A DNA stretch of 38,535 nt from a virus: positions 1-38,535 of the IMG/VR virus record IMGVR_UViG_3300020061_000014; one strand, given 5' to 3'. Both the position numbers and the translations under genes were made by a program. Position 1 is the first letter of the stretch; each line of letters starts with the position of its first letter. The notes beneath the pieces are model-generated. The model had not been told where the DNA came from. It was given only the letters and a program-made list of their open reading frames with translations, and did no database searches. This document shows positions 8,917-20,236 of this stretch, piece after piece.

Positions 8917-9918
8917 CGCCGGGGTGACGATCGCCTGCGCAATCGCAATCGGGTCGATCACCTTGTAGCCGTACACCTGCAGCCCACGCAGGATCTGACC
9001 GAAGGTGTGCTCGGACCTCAGGGTCTCCACCTTCGAGACCTGCGACGCGAACGTCAGGCCGTGCGGATGACCGGCGTAGATCACCCACTCGCCCGCAGCC
9101 AACGCCGGTGGTCCGGTGATCGGTCCCTTCGGCAGGAGGTTCGACACGTAGATCGTAAAGCGGTCGACCTGACCCAGCCGCCCGTTGCGCAGCATCGAGG
9201 TCTGGTCACCCGAGAGGTAAGCCTGACGCAGTTCCGACTGCTTGATCTTGGTCGCGGCCCACGTCGGGATGATCGCCCAGCGTCCCTCTTCGGGGACGTT
9301 CTGCTCGTCTAGCGCCTGTCCCAGACGCAGGAGCACGGTGAGGATCGAGACATCGCCGCCGACCGGATCGTCCTCGGCCGCAACCGCCAGAGGCGTGCCG
9401 GTGACACCGAGGTTGATCGACGCCGAGATCGCGCCGGCAGTGAGGCCACGGTTGGCCGCCGAAGCGGTGCCGAGGATGCCGAGCAGCACATCGCTGTCGA
9501 TCTTGATCTTCATCTGCTGGGCAGCGTCGTCGCTCCACATGCCCATCAGGTTGAGGTCGGACTGCACCTCCATCACGTCGTCGAGGATGGTGGCGAAGTA
9601 CTTACCCTTGTTGATCAGCAGGTCGATGATGTTGGAGCTCGGGCGCTCCACGACGATGCCACCGTCAGCGAGGTAATCGTTGATGGTGATCGTCGGCTTG
9701 GTCCGGATGTGGACCGTATCGCCTTGGTTCTTGATCTCGCCTTCGTAGGCGGTGTTGGAGATCGCGGCGAGCACGGTGCTGGCGTAGAACTTCTCCAGCA
9801 GTTTGCCCGACCAAATCTCGGGAATGACGGTATGCGAGTACGCCGGGTTCGGCGTCAGTGAGCCGGTGGGGTAGATGGCTGGCGTGGTGCCAGAACCAGC
9901 AAGAGGATAAACAGCCAT
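8914..9918 (-). CDS. Major capsid (coat) protein
   Basis: A 334-residue protein without low-complexity regions, directly downstream of a scaffold-like gene, which is the standard position of the HK97-fold coat protein. Typical features are the N-terminal VIPEIWSGKLLEKFYASTVL segment, the strand DTVHIRTKPTITINDYLADG, the long helix around LINKGKYFATILDDVMEVQS, and the C-terminal capsid pattern RFTIYVSNLLPKG... VIYAGHPHGLTFASQVSKVE. It shells the DNA-filled head. A clean Shine-Dalgarno (GGAGG) lies seven bases upstream. Its TAA stop lies inside a family A palindrome, followed by a GC-rich hairpin. No protease gene is visible nearby. Confidence 0.93.
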   Translation of the reverse strand: MAVYPLAGSGTTPAIYPTGSLTPNPAYSHTVIPEIWSGKLLEKFYASTVLAAISNTAYEGEIKNQGDTVHIRTKPTITINDYLADGGIVVERPSSNIIDLLINKGKYFATILDDVMEVQSDLNLMGMWSDDAAQQMKIKIDSDVLLGILGTASAANRGLTAGAISASINLGVTGTPLAVAAEDDPVGGDVSILTVLLRLGQALDEQNVPEEGRWAIIPTWAATKIKQSELRQAYLSGDQTSMLRNGRLGQVDRFTIYVSNLLPKGPITGPPALAAGEWVIYAGHPHGLTFASQVSKVETLRSEHTFGQILRGLQVYGYKVIDPIAIAQAIVTPA

Positions 9919-11083: not shown

Positions 11084-11333
11084 TGGGCTCTCTCCTCTGG
11101 TAAGTCGCCCGCATCTCGCTGCACTCTTGAAGGTGTCGGCGCAGGGAGCTCACGAGCTTGACGCCGCCTTGGCAGCGAAACACGTCGGTGGGATTTTCAC
11201 TGCTCACCATGTCGGCGATGGTCGCGACCTCGTAGGCGCGGATCGCCTCGACCAGTGCAGCGAATTGTTGGGGTGCAGCGGCTTTCAGGGGGGCCGCTGC
11301 CATGACGATGTCGGTCAGGGGGTTCTTTGACAT
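11076..11333 (-). CDS. Small head-operon hypothetical protein
   Basis: An 85-residue protein (MSKNPLTDIVMAAAPLKAAA at the start). The ATG at 11333 is embedded in the family B palindrome at 11327-11341, whose right half (ATGTCAAAG) encodes Met-Ser-Lys. A longer frame to 11423 exists but would overlap the upstream gene. The protein is helical with one Cys pair-like spacing (FRCQGGVKLVSSLRRHLQEC). It overlaps the scaffold start by eight bases, which suggests coupled translation. Function unknown. Confidence 0.7.
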   Translation of the reverse strand: MSKNPLTDIVMAAAPLKAAAPQQFAALVEAIRAYEVATIADMVSSENPTDVFRCQGGVKLVSSLRRHLQECSEMRATYQRREPNA

Positions 11334-11341
11334 TTTGTCAA
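11327..11341. promoter_or_regulatory. Family B palindrome across a start codon
   Basis: TTGACATTTTGTCAA on the plus strand; on the minus strand it reads TTGACAAAATGTCAA and its ATG is the start of the 85-residue gene. Only family B copy found at a gene start in the leftward structural block. Confidence 0.7.
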
Positions 11342-11346
11342 CTGGA

Positions 11347-11601
11347 TCACTTTGGTTTGGCGTCGACCCCCATCGTAGCCATGTCGATGATGTCTTGGTA
11401 GGTGGCCGGTGCGTTTGCGCCACTGGGCGCGAGTTTGGCGTAATTTCCCATTGAACGGTCCCATGGAGACCCCTTCGTCAGGGTCTCCATGGCGTTGCGT
11501 CCCGGCAGCAGCTGTTCGCGTGATCCCTTGTTCGAGAACGTCTGCAAGCGCCCGCTACCTGGGTTGATGCGCTTGGGTCCGAACTTGCCACCGGTCGCCA
11601 T
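11347..11601 (-). CDS. Small hypothetical structural-operon protein
   Basis: An 84-residue basic protein with NKGSREQLLPGRNAMETLTK and a C-terminal helix (TYQDIIDMATMGVDAKPK). Gly/Asn/Pro content suggests an extended or partly disordered chain. It lies between the portal and the scaffold with two other tiny basic genes, a position often held by minor head proteins or DNA-packaging accessories. No family with known function is recognised. Confidence 0.72.
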   Translation of the reverse strand: MATGGKFGPKRINPGSGRLQTFSNKGSREQLLPGRNAMETLTKGSPWDRSMGNYAKLAPSGANAPATYQDIIDMATMGVDAKPK

Positions 11602-15003: not shown

Positions 15004-15266
15004 GTACCATGGAGGACTGGATCAAGGACTGCGGCGAGCACATCAAGCAGACCTTCCCGACCCATCTCGTGATCGTCTGGTATCCGCGCGGCGAATGGGC
15101 CGTCAACGTCGACAACCTGCGCGTCGACCACATCATCTGCCTGATGGCGTGGCTCGACAGCCAAATGCGTCAACAAGGAATTACCACTAGCCAACGCTAC
15201 AGCATCTATCGCGGGTTTGGTTACTCGCGGATGCGGTCGTGGCTCTACGCGGTGTGCCGTCCATGA
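15000..15266 (+). CDS. Small hypothetical protein between terminase genes
   Basis: An 88-residue protein (MSTMEDWIKDCGEHIKQTFP at the start). It overlaps the upstream gene by four bases and the large terminase by four bases (ATGA both times), so all three are probably translated as a unit. Composition is mixed, with Trp and Tyr residues (VIVWYPRGEWAVNVDNLRVD) suggesting a small folded domain. No family recognised; a packaging accessory role would fit its position. Confidence 0.72.
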   Translation: MSTMEDWIKDCGEHIKQTFPTHLVIVWYPRGEWAVNVDNLRVDHIICLMAWLDSQMRQQGITTSQRYSIYRGFGYSRMRSWLYAVCRP

Positions 15267-16717
15267 TCGAGATCAATTTCGTCCCGCCCCCGACGGGCGT
15301 GACGTTCATGCTGAGCAACTCGTTCTACCGGTTCATCCTCGGACCACTGGGCTCCGGCAAGACCACCACCGTCCTGTTCGAGCTCCTGCGACGCGCTTGC
15401 GAGCAGATGCCCGGCCTTGACGGCATACGCCATACCCGGTTTGCTCTGCTGCGCCAGACCCTGCAGCAACTGAAGAACACCGTGCTCAAGGACATCATCC
15501 AGTGGTTCGGTCCACTGATGGAATGGCGGGTGTCCGAGAGCACGGTGTGGTTCAAGTTCGGCGACGTGGTGAGCGAGTGGATCTTGCTGCCACTCGAGAC
15601 GCCCGAGGACCAGAAGCGCATCCTGTCAATGAACATCACCGGCGCGTTCGTGTCGGAAGCCATCGAGATCGACTTCGACCTGATGGTCGCCATCGCCGGC
15701 CGCTGCGGGCGCTTCCCGTCGGTGATCGACGGCGGTGCGACGTGGTACGGCGTGGTGCTCGACAGCAACATGCCGACCGAGGGGACACCCTGGCACACCG
15801 CTGTCGCCACGCCGCCCCCGGGGTGGCAGGTGTTCATCCAACCCTCCGGTCTCGCCCCCGACGCCGAGAACCTCAACTGGCTGCTGCAGACGCCAGCGAC
15901 CTCGGCACTGCCGATCGACCATCCGGTCCGGCTGGCCAAGGGCCGCGAGTACTACGCCCGGCTCAGCACCTCGACCAACCCGGCGTGGGTGAAGCGCTAC
16001 GTCATGGCCGAATTCGGCCCCGACCCGTCCGGTGCCGCCGTGTACCACGGCATGTTCTACATCGACTTCCACTGCCGCGACGACTTGCTGGTGATCCCCG
16101 GTGCGCCGCTGCTCATCGGCCTCGACCTTGGCCGCGACCCGTGGGGACTGATCGGTCAGGTTGACACTTTGTCACGACTGATGATCCACGAGGAGGTCGC
16201 CGCCAACGACATCGGTCTCAAGCTGCAGCTGCCCAAGCTCCGGCAGGTGCTGATGTCGAACCCGCGCTACGTCACTTGTCCAATGGTAATTATCTTCGAC
16301 CCGGCCGGCATGGCGCGCGGCTCGTTCGACGAGTACACCAGCTACGATGTGATCCGCGCGGCCGGTTTCATGTGCATGCCGGCACCCTCCAACAAGCTCG
16401 CGCCGCGGCTGAACGCCGCCGAGCGATTTATGACAGAAACTCGTGGTGGGACTGCGGCGATGCTGATCAACCGGACCAAGTGCCCGACCCTGGTCGCCGG
16501 CCTCAACGGATCGTACCGCTTCAAGTTCAACCAGATCGGTGAGAGCGCGGCGATCCCCGAGAAGAACCGCTGGTCCCACGTCTGCGACGCCCACCAATAT
16601 CTCTGCATGGCCGCGTCGGGCAACACGGCGACGTCGATCGCGCGCAAGGTGATGCGCGCCTCGATGCAGTCGCTGGGGAAGAAGAAGCCGGTGCCGTCGG
16701 CGGCCGGCTGGACCTGA
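15263..16717 (+). CDS. terL: Terminase large subunit
   Basis: A 484-residue protein that packages DNA into the head. The start at 15263 was chosen for its ATGA overlap with the preceding gene. Walker A is GPLGSGKT at residues 27-34. The ATPase part continues with the arginine-rich LLRQTLQQLKNTVLKDII and a Walker B-like segment with an acidic end (NITGAFVSEAIEID). The nuclease half begins with LLIGLDLGRDPWGLIGQ, carrying an Asp of the RNase H-like fold, followed by MVIIFDPAGMARGSFDEY, a second acidic site. Length fits podoviral terminases. It is on the plus strand, opposite to the portal and all other head genes. Confidence 0.92.
   Translation: MIEINFVPPPTGVTFMLSNSFYRFILGPLGSGKTTTVLFELLRRACEQMPGLDGIRHTRFALLRQTLQQLKNTVLKDIIQWFGPLMEWRVSESTVWFKFGDVVSEWILLPLETPEDQKRILSMNITGAFVSEAIEIDFDLMVAIAGRCGRFPSVIDGGATWYGVVLDSNMPTEGTPWHTAVATPPPGWQVFIQPSGLAPDAENLNWLLQTPATSALPIDHPVRLAKGREYYARLSTSTNPAWVKRYVMAEFGPDPSGAAVYHGMFYIDFHCRDDLLVIPGAPLLIGLDLGRDPWGLIGQVDTLSRLMIHEEVAANDIGLKLQLPKLRQVLMSNPRYVTCPMVIIFDPAGMARGSFDEYTSYDVIRAAGFMCMPAPSNKLAPRLNAAERFMTETRGGTAAMLINRTKCPTLVAGLNGSYRFKFNQIGESAAIPEKNRWSHVCDAHQYLCMAASGNTATSIARKVMRASMQSLGKKKPVPSAAGWT
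16161..16175. repeat. Family B-like sequence inside the terminase gene
   Basis: TTGACACTTTGTCAC in coding sequence, one arm base off; likely chance. Confidence 0.3.
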
Positions 16718-18458: not shown

Positions 18459-18584
18459 CAAGGTAGCTTAGAAGCCGTGGGATGTCAAGTGGAAAATACC
18501 TTTTTTCCCTCCTACAGATTTACGAAGTGCCTAACCCCCCAGGGCCGGGGCCGGGTCCTGTCCATGTCCCCCGTGGCTATCCAC

Positions 18585-18599: not shown

Positions 18600-18622
18600 C
18601 GGTTTACACTCGACATAGGTTA

Positions 18623-18662: not shown

Positions 18663-19364
18663 ATGGCTACCATCGAAACAAAGGACCTAGTCAAGTCGGA
18701 CCTGAGCCTCATGGGCTCGCTTAAGAGCGAGAAGGACCGCAACGCGGCGATTGACAAGTTTGAGATCGGCGCTTCCGATAGCACGCTGAACCGCCGCATC
18801 GCGGTCTACATGTGGGGTATCGGCAAGGCGTCTGGCGGCAATGAACCGGCCCCGATTGATGGTTACTTGAAGGCCATCAATGCGAAGATGCGGGGCGGGT
18901 CGACCGGCCGCACGATCCTCTCGGACAAGTCGGTTGGCACGTACAATTCGTATTACGCGAATTTCGCCGCTCTCGGCTTCGTCAAGGGATGGGACACAAC
19001 GTCGGTTCTCGTCTGGATACTCGACAACGTCAAAGGGAAGTACTCCACACGCGGCGCGTTCATGAAGGACGTTTACTCGCTCACTGAGGAGCCGAGCGAG
19101 GAAAAGCTTGCCACCATGTGGAAGGCTTCGCAGGACGCGCCAAAGCTGGACGGCAAGGCGTCGGCCATCGTCAAGGCTGGCACGGCGCTCGCTAAGGAGC
19201 CTGCATTCAAGGCGACGTTGCTTGGTAACGCCAACGTGAAGACGGCCTATCAAAAGATGGTACTGGCCATGAACGCTTTCGAGGCCGCCGTGAAGGCCAC
19301 GGGCGGCAGCGCGTCGGATGACGACGACGATTTCCTAAAGGAGATCATGGCCGACGCGGCCTAG
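18663..19364 (+). CDS. First early gene, hypothetical acidic-tailed protein
   Basis: A 233-residue soluble helical protein (MATIETKDLVKSDLSLMGSL at the start). It ends with SDDDDDFLKEIMADAA, an acidic tail like those of some single-strand-binding and DNA-mimic proteins, although the body does not show an OB-fold pattern I can name. It is the first gene after the divergent control region, has its own leader hairpin, and ends at a strong Rho-independent terminator, so it is probably transcribed alone and at a high level. The later gene at 21927 is similar in size and overall helical build but not obviously homologous. Function unknown. Confidence 0.82.
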   Translation: MATIETKDLVKSDLSLMGSLKSEKDRNAAIDKFEIGASDSTLNRRIAVYMWGIGKASGGNEPAPIDGYLKAINAKMRGGSTGRTILSDKSVGTYNSYYANFAALGFVKGWDTTSVLVWILDNVKGKYSTRGAFMKDVYSLTEEPSEEKLATMWKASQDAPKLDGKASAIVKAGTALAKEPAFKATLLGNANVKTAYQKMVLAMNAFEAAVKATGGSASDDDDDFLKEIMADAA

Positions 19365-19380
19365 TGTGGGGTGGGAGGAG

Positions 19381-19407
19381 CCGGACGGCGCAAGCCGTCC
19401 GGTTTTT
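19381..19407 (+). terminator. Rho-independent terminator
   Basis: CCGGACGGC (19381-19389) pairs perfectly with GCCGTCCGG (19394-19402) around a GCAA tetraloop and is followed by five T residues. It lies 17 bases after the stop of the first early gene. Confidence 0.93.
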
Positions 19408-19420
19408 CCATGTCCGGCTC

Positions 19421-19435
19421 TAACCCCCGGGGTTA
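19421..19435. repeat. Family A palindrome after first early gene
   Basis: TAACCCCCGGGGTTA, 13 bases after the U tract of the terminator at 19381-19407 and 75 bases before a family B element. Confidence 0.85.
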
Positions 19436-19509
19436 CGTCCGGCAGGCCGCTGGCGCGGCCGGTCACTTCGTGACCTGTATGGCCGGTCGAGGGCAGGCGG
19501 AGCGAGGTC

Positions 19510-19524
19510 TTGACATAATGTCAA
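19510..19524. promoter_or_regulatory. Family B palindrome near the putative origin
   Basis: TTGACATAATGTCAA followed by ATGGAAAC; 66 bases before the first iteron. Confidence 0.8.
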
Positions 19525-19589
19525 ATGGAAACTTCCCTCTTCCCGCAATGTGGCAGGAATGTGACCTGTGCCAGCCGTCGAGGGCAGCG

Positions 19590-19896
19590 CTTGGTGCACC
19601 TTGGTGTAGCTTACCACTGGACAGTTGCACCAAGGACGGCAAGGGCAGTGGTGCGGCTAAGTCCTTGTATTTAACTCTCTTTCTGTCAGAGTATGTATAT
19701 TGGGAATATCCTTGGTGCATAAGTGCACTTGGTGCAGGGGGTACACCCCCCCTGGGAAATTTTGCGTTTGTAAAAATTTTACAACGCGCCCTCTGCCCCG
19801 GGGGGCGGGTTGTTCCACATCGACTACACCTTTGCACTTATGAGCAATATCAATGAGTTACGACTTAACAGAATGCACCAAGCCGACTGCACCAAG
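19590..19896. other. Putative replication origin with iterons and AT-rich palindrome
   Basis: Six exact copies of the 9-mer CTTGGTGCA or its complement lie here: forward at 19590-19598, 19711-19719 and 19728-19736; reverse at 19626-19634, 19874-19882 and 19888-19896. A near copy is at 19600-19608. Between the inner inverted pairs lie a hairpin GGGGGT-AC-ACCCCC (19737-19750) and an AT-rich palindrome (19764-19787: GCGTT, bulge, GTAAAA, A, TTTTAC, AACGC). GC content drops sharply around 19660-19790. Iterons plus an AT-rich palindrome are the standard look of a replication origin; function is inferred. Confidence 0.55.
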
Positions 19897-19906
19897 GAGA
19901 TGTTTA

Positions 19907-20236
19907 ATGAGAAAACCGGTCAGATTGAGTGTGAACGCCCGCATCTGCCTCATCCATCGCTACTGGTGTGGCGCTGCGCGTGTGGAATTGGGGATGGCTT
20001 TCGGCCTCGGCACCCTGCGGTCCCGGCTTCAAAGCGCAATACACGATCAATCAAGGGCCATGGACGTGTGGATCGCAATCCACCCGGGACCATGGGACGT
20101 GACGCAGCTCGACCTGCGCCGCACTAACCGGACGGCTACCGCGCACCCGCTGCTCACCTACGGGGAGATCGGCGGGTTCATTGCCGACTGGCATGAGGAC
20201 TATCGCAGCTTCATCAACCGAAGGAGTGTCAAATGA
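19907..20236 (+). CDS. Hypothetical basic protein next to the putative origin
   Basis: A 109-residue protein from ATG 19907, chosen because AAGGAG, itself part of the last iteron, lies upstream with good spacing; an upstream ATG at 19853 would run through two iterons. The N-terminus is basic with Cys and Trp (MRKPVRLSVNARICLIHRYW). The C-terminal part (GEIGGFIADWHEDYRSFINR) is a likely amphipathic helix. Its place beside the origin raises the idea of a replication initiator or regulator, but no such domain is visible. The stop overlaps the next start. Confidence 0.62.
   Translation: MRKPVRLSVNARICLIHRYWCGAARVELGMAFGLGTLRSRLQSAIHDQSRAMDVWIAIHPGPWDVTQLDLRRTNRTATAHPLLTYGEIGGFIADWHEDYRSFINRRSVK

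Follow-up and report, generated by a model that had tools for sequence, protein, structure and literature searches.

Iteron Origins in Related Systems

The closest described counterparts of the locus considered here are the Rep-ori modules of PICI/SaPI elements, such as SaPI1, SaPIbov1 and EcCICFT073. In Gram-negative PICIs, the origin always comprises two iteron sets around an AT-rich region, and together with rep, it replicates a plasmid (PMC6092414). The C-terminal domain of SaPI Rep recognizes a short-iteron origin, and Cch, a DUF927 protein, is related to the Rep of SaPIbov1 (PMC7581432). The putative origin of the SCCmec Cch/Cch2 system resembles the present locus, as short repeats and hairpins occupy a gene-free stretch there and a related self-loading helicase, Cch, is encoded; it differs in belonging to a staphylococcal cassette, with a separate primase-polymerase and only three iterons (PMC7581432).

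The locus compared with these systems lies in a 38,535-base IMG/VR virus record of a soil phage, classed as linear and probably a fragment; this whole stretch is called the window. Positions 19410-19906 are likely to form the iteron replication origin of this phage, and nothing similar was found annotated in this lineage in the collections searched and the open-access literature. Similar to the PICI/SaPI origins, several short identical iterons occur within one gene-free region, with two sets (iterons 4-5 and 6-7) flanking an AT-rich stretch at 19764-19787. Moreover, the iteron sequence varies from element to element, as in the lineage of the window, and the DUF927 (Cch/SaPIbov1 Rep-like) initiator family is shared with its complete relatives. 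There are also differences: the window has iteron pairs facing each other and an extra upstream set, the helicase of the relatives carries a fused primase, and the genome is that of a phage, not of a satellite. In addition, the SaPI origin lies just downstream of rep, whereas the proposed origin and the DUF927 gene of the relatives are approximately 22-28 kb apart. By analogy, the region may work like a PICI/SaPI Rep-ori, as a variant of this class and not a member, because the origin of the relatives is away from the initiator gene and the initiator of the window is deduced from them.

In phage P4 (ori/crr), the alpha protein acts as initiator, helicase and primase and binds short iterons, its helicase part belonging to another family than DUF927. 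The window shares with P4 the short iterons and a cis region apart from the initiator gene, with an unrelated iteron sequence. RepA-type theta plasmid origins (R6K, P1 and pSC101) have direct and regularly phased iterons of around 19-22 bp. They are similar to the window in having iterons, an AT-rich region and an IHF site; however, the copies of the window are 9 bp long and run in both directions, and no Rep family was detected among the window proteins that were scanned against Pfam and PHROGs. Regarding a DnaA-dependent origin, no DnaA box (TTATNCACA) is present in the window.

Organization of the Intergenic Region

The left part of the window carries the structural genes on the minus strand, with the large terminase gene at 15239-16717. 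The plus-strand early arm starts at 18663 and encodes AAA and VWA proteins; a DNA polymerase gene of the family A type lies where the fragment breaks off on the right. No host was found when TerL was searched against the GTDB genomes. The proposed origin, i.e., the whole intergenic replicator region (19410..19906), extends from the terminator of the 18663 gene to the start codon at 19907. The gene on its left (18663..19364, plus strand, 233 aa) has an acidic tail, no known family and 60% identity to its counterpart in L007, a near relative described below, and is ended by the terminator hairpin CCGGACGGC-GCAA-GCCGTCCGG-TTTTT (19381..19407, plus strand). Because of the acidic tail, its product was considered as an OB-fold SSB, which was rejected, as the AlphaFold model is all-helical, with low confidence (pLDDT 51). 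The first gene on the right (19907..20236, plus strand, 109 aa) also has no known family. These roughly 500 bases are without a conserved gene; the open frames crossing them are not kept in L007. Of all 150-bp segments in the record, those with the lowest GC content (46%) fall there. Both findings agree with the first-pass annotation, which had noted a drop in GC content and no convincing gene.

The array starts with iteron 1 (CTTGGTGCA, 19590..19598, plus strand, exact) and the near copy iteron 2 (CTTGGTGTA, 19600..19608, plus strand), followed by TTACCACTGGACAGT (19611..19625, plus strand), which resembles half of the TTGACAT palindromes, and by iteron 3, an exact minus-strand copy reading TGCACCAAG on the plus strand (19626..19634). 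Iterons 4 (19711..19719) and 5 (19728..19736) are exact copies on the plus strand, and iterons 6 (19874..19882) and 7 (19888..19896) are exact copies on the minus strand, the latter continuing into AAGGAG, the ribosome-binding site of the 19907 gene. Thus, the 9-bp copies are found in both orientations, ordered right-right-left (19590, 19600 and 19626) and then right-right and left-left (19711 and 19728; 19874 and 19888), with spacings of 10, 17 and 14.

No exact CTTGGTGCA occurs outside 19590-19896 in the 38,535-base record, which is not the pattern of stoperators or dispersed repressor sites. When one mismatch is allowed, 20 matches are present in the window, compared to 10.0 +/- 3.2 expected, 13 of them scattered outside the array, about the chance number. 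To account for the freedom in choosing both the 9-mer and the 310-bp stretch, the entire window was dinucleotide-shuffled 60 times, and the most frequent 9-mer within 310 bp did not exceed three copies. The intergenic interval alone has six exact and seven one-mismatch copies, against shuffle maxima of two and four, respectively. Counts and shuffles therefore confirm the earlier description of six exact copies and one near copy within 310 bases, with none exact elsewhere. Among the matches listed in a search of IMG/VR with a loose iteron pattern, no comparable cluster was seen except two simple tandem arrays.

The core GGTACACCCCCCCTGGGAAATTTT (19740..19763, plus strand), whose GGTACACCCCCCCT part is identical in the E. 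coli element pSTEC648_2, is flanked by iterons 4-5 and 6-7 and comprises a C-run followed by GGGAAATTTT, next to which lies the AT-rich near-palindrome GCGTTTGTAAAAATTTTACAACGC (19764..19787), the proposed unwinding element. The hairpin GGGGGTACACCCCC also sits between the pairs 19711/19728 and 19874/19888, so that both elements across which the first-pass annotation had these pairs facing, a GC hairpin and an AT palindrome, are found in place. On the right side, an exact IHF consensus (TATCAATGAGTTA, 19848..19860, plus strand) is the sole one in the window (P around 0.01 for the interval by shuffling).

Neither the GC skew nor the AT skew of the window turns exactly at the array, and the GC skew, which had been proposed as a check, shows nothing there. 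The cumulative AT skew is lowest at 18605, approximately 1 kb off the array, coinciding with divergent transcription. The skew minima near the gaps of the relatives coincide with divergent transcription as well and, therefore, give no independent proof; GC skew was rejected as a proof of the origin, as it is confounded with the transcription direction.

Comparison with Related Phages

Relatives were sought by alignments of TerL and of the 18663 protein and by flank patterns, which yielded only L007 and two fragments ending before the origin. L007 is a 6,887-base relative with a 91% identical terminase (TerL), ending short of the expected left-facing pair. The 101 bases immediately upstream of the repeats are 91% identical between the window and L007, and the elements are arranged in the same order: a terminator with a compensated stem (CCGGGGGGC-GCAA-GCCCCCCGG, the stem changes being compensated relative to the window), the CTAACC palindrome, GTGACCTGT, TTGACATAATGTCAA and a second GTGACCTGT. 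Meanwhile, at all iteron sites within the reach of L007, CTTGGTGCA has given way to repeats of the GGGGGGAA(A) type in corresponding places. Two direct GGGGGGAA(A) copies 8 apart are followed by the kept TTACCAYTKGACAGT, an inverted copy and direct copies, the position of iteron 3 reading TTTCCCCC, and the second direct run starts 109 bp after the first copy, compared to 121 in the window. Although the flanking iterons differ, TTACCACTGGACAGT is retained in L007 as TTACCATTTGACAGT, with the consensus TTACCA(C/T)T(T/G)GACAGT. Such a concerted replacement with preserved geometry is expected when the binding sites of one specific protein follow its altered specificity.

In all three complete relatives, the boundary between the early and late arms is a gene-free AT-rich gap, syntenic with the region of the window. 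The complete genome of Rhizobium phage RHph_TM3_14A (60,889 bp) shares synteny with the window, having a homologous portal, terminase, capsid, ATPase, VWA protein and polymerase. The 400 bp with the lowest GC content in the genome (32.5%) lie in its gap (19356-20124), which also has two exact IHF sites facing each other; the repeats of this gap are weak and AT-rich, with no clear iterons (eight at one mismatch, compared to a shuffle maximum of six). In Pseudomonas phage Rollin (61,282 bp), ten copies of AAAAGGTAG, mostly in palindromic pairs and representing every copy in the genome, are clustered at 61262-500 across the record start, in the lowest-GC region between the early and late arms. 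The homology at the sequence level between the region of the window and those of RHph_TM3_14A and Rollin was not significant.

The third relative, pSTEC648_2 (CP061838.1), is a 60,552-bp E. coli element that was deposited as a plasmid; it is homologous to the window in the terminase (TerL), portal, internal virion protein and polymerase. It also encodes a holin, a lysozyme, ParB, a toxin-antitoxin pair and a very large virion protein. Owing to the homologous phage genes together with the holin, lysozyme and ParB, it is probably a phage-plasmid of the window's lineage. The replicator of this lineage probably supports plasmid replication, as a ParB-bearing plasmid deposit has TerL, portal and polymerase in common with the window. 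The late/early gap of pSTEC648_2, inspected only after the origin model was formed, has CTGTAGCAC-type copies directed rightward at 9260 and 9268 and leftward at 9374 and 9382, besides two more leftward (six copies against a shuffle maximum of four). The same gap holds two of the three exact IHF sites of the record, and the cumulative GC skew has its minimum at 9805 and its maximum 29 kb away. Between the iteron pairs, GGTACACCCCCCCT is present at 9285, followed by GGGAATTTT and an AT palindrome, matching the core of the window; scores as high were obtained in 2 of 300 shuffles, so this match is only suggestive.

The exact IHF consensus WATCAANNNNTTR is present in all five gaps, with one site each in the window, L007 and Rollin and two each in RHph_TM3_14A and pSTEC648_2. 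The respective shuffle probabilities are 0.0095, 0.0135, 0.044, 0.007 and 0.004, a support weakened by the fact that the motif was picked after inspecting the sequence and that AT-rich DNA favors such matches. The sites of the window and L007 differ in place and orientation and, thus, were not simply inherited.

Putative Initiator

Each of the three complete relatives has a DUF927 helicase as part of a protein of 865-1027 aa; the sequence matches of this family include Cch (5dgk) and 8tch, a protein of a staphylococcal pathogenicity island. Primase matches were obtained in two of the three, the RHph_TM3_14A protein hitting primase profiles and the primase-polymerase match of Rollin being weak. 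The RHph_TM3_14A gene (MN988472.1, 42239-45322) is annotated as a 'putative integrase' and is actually that of a primase-DUF927 helicase. It is located approximately 9 kb downstream of the polymerase, i.e., past the broken end of the window. Judging from these relatives, the initiator of the window's phage is somewhat more probably a DUF927-type (SaPI Rep/Cch) helicase than anything else; it is predicted and not seen, because the window breaks off in the polymerase gene, before the expected position.

The neighbor at 19907, which had been named as the starting candidate for an initiator, was rejected, as it has no Pfam or phage-collection match and its counterpart in RHph_TM3_14A is unrelated; a longer version of its frame, from 19853, was negative against PHROGs. 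Other DUF927/primase loci checked for iterons were too distant or fragmentary to be informative. In a Planctomycetaceae contig, nine copies of AAGTGTTCT were observed within 300 bp (around 11254-11557), approximately 2 kb from a primase-like match, and this cluster is perhaps another iteron origin.

Proposed Mechanism and Alternative Explanations

The concerted replacement of the repeat in L007, the iterons in two syntenic gaps, the IHF sites in five regions and the DUF927 helicases of the relatives, along with their AT-rich gaps, argue for the origin interpretation of the first-pass annotation. The best explanation is most likely a bidirectional origin built like those of PICI/SaPI. As read from the sequence, with initiator binding, unwinding, IHF binding and origin function all deduced from it, the phage initiator, likely a fused primase/DUF927 helicase of the SaPI Rep/Cch type encoded to the right of the fragment, would bind the iterons via its specificity domain. 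Then, the facing pairs 4+5 and 6+7 would position two helicase hexamers flanking the C-run/AT-palindrome core, which would melt as host IHF bends the DNA. The initiator would load itself and prime, and the family A polymerase of the phage would extend, resulting in bidirectional replication, while iterons 1-3 may be an additional set for control or enhancement.

The main rival is a regulatory array, where a phage repressor or activator would bind CTTGGTGCA and control the rightward early operon from 19907. This would fit the repeats standing immediately before the early arm, with TTGACA-like elements inside and beside them, and operators too change in concert when the specificity of a repressor switches. 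However, no sigma-70-like promoter was found inside the repeats and no repressor or integrase family among the window proteins searched; the AT-rich gap is kept here across the lineage, and an IHF site together with iteron pairs that face each other across a C-run/AT palindrome is the anatomy of an origin. This explanation is considered unlikely, and an operator role could coexist with an origin, since initiators often repress nearby promoters.

It is very improbable that the array is an RNA element, in which the transcript would pair CTTGGTGCA with TGCACCAAG and mask the AAGGAG of the 19907 gene. The predicted fold is strong (z -4.7) and iteron 7 adjoins this ribosome-binding site, but good folding is expected of any inverted-repeat array, the direct copies (1-2 and 4-5, also in L007) would be superfluous for a hairpin, iterons 1-3 are distant from the start codon and no Rfam match was obtained. 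It is hardly credible that the repeats are protein-binding boxes of a packaging site (pac/cos) or of a partition site (centromere): short repeats are known in such sites and ParB is encoded by pSTEC648_2, but the large terminase gene is approximately 3 kb off, past the 18663 gene, no ParA/ParB match was found among the window proteins searched and no supporting gene lies beside the array.

Returning to the iteron origin, the different repeats at the same place in related phages suggest that each phage may have its own lock-and-key start signal. It is conceivable, albeit doubtful, that the recognition code (CTTGGTGCA, GGGGGGAA, AAAAGGTAG and CTGTAGCAC) is swapped whole, with the place, geometry and perhaps the melting core kept, due to an arms race of replication incompatibility, i.e., selection against the use or titration of the initiator by competing phages, phage-plasmids and satellites. 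The iteron swap in near relatives indicates that origin specificity can change quickly, which bears on incompatibility, superinfection and satellite parasitism. To our knowledge, the replication origins of most tailed phages are unknown; in the present case, the layout of the region and the comparison with relatives suggest a defined replicator of 500 bp and a named initiator family, and the claim is directly testable in the isolated phages RHph_TM3_14A and Rollin, which carry that family.

Other Repeat Families

The palindrome CTTGACATWATGTCAAG has eight copies in the window (chance 0.01), at 18584, 19509, 20462, 21918, 24333, 29798 and 33795 and, weaker, at 11326. Seven are in the plus-strand arm, several just upstream of genes. 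As it contains TTGACA, it is likely an operator overlapping a -35 element; the copy within the proposed origin (CTTGACATAATGTCAAA, 19509..19525), a putative operator or -35 element, has an identical core in L007. Additionally, GTGACCTGT has seven exact copies, which lie in the early arm and always on the plus strand (19470, 19561, 20518, 21810, 26038, 29855 and 33304). Three of them sit 52-57 bp after a TTGACAT palindrome, and two are within the longer repeat GTGACCTGT..GCCG(N)TCNAGGGCA, which is retained in L007; GTGACCTGT may belong to a phage promoter.

Around 21 copies of the 17-bp palindrome CTAACYYCSGRRGTTAG (chance 0.03) are dispersed over the window, every 1-3 kb and in many cases at gene junctions: 2475, 5273, 8901, 11842, 14974, 17429, 18443, 19420, 20490, 21766, 23119, 24303, 26669, 28376, 29863, 30991, 32352, 33116, 35075, 36713 and 38503. 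An ATG with an open frame follows the palindrome by 0-9 nt in 10 of the 21 copies, compared to a background of 21%, and in those cases the palindrome provides the ribosome-binding site. RHph_TM3_14A has its own palindrome family, GTTACC-N6-GGTAAC, with 15 exact copies and distinct from CTAACYYCSGRRGTTAG; therefore, the code of the dispersed palindromes also varies between relatives. CTAACYYCSGRRGTTAG resembles the start-associated sequences of Cluster K mycobacteriophages (PMC3203893).
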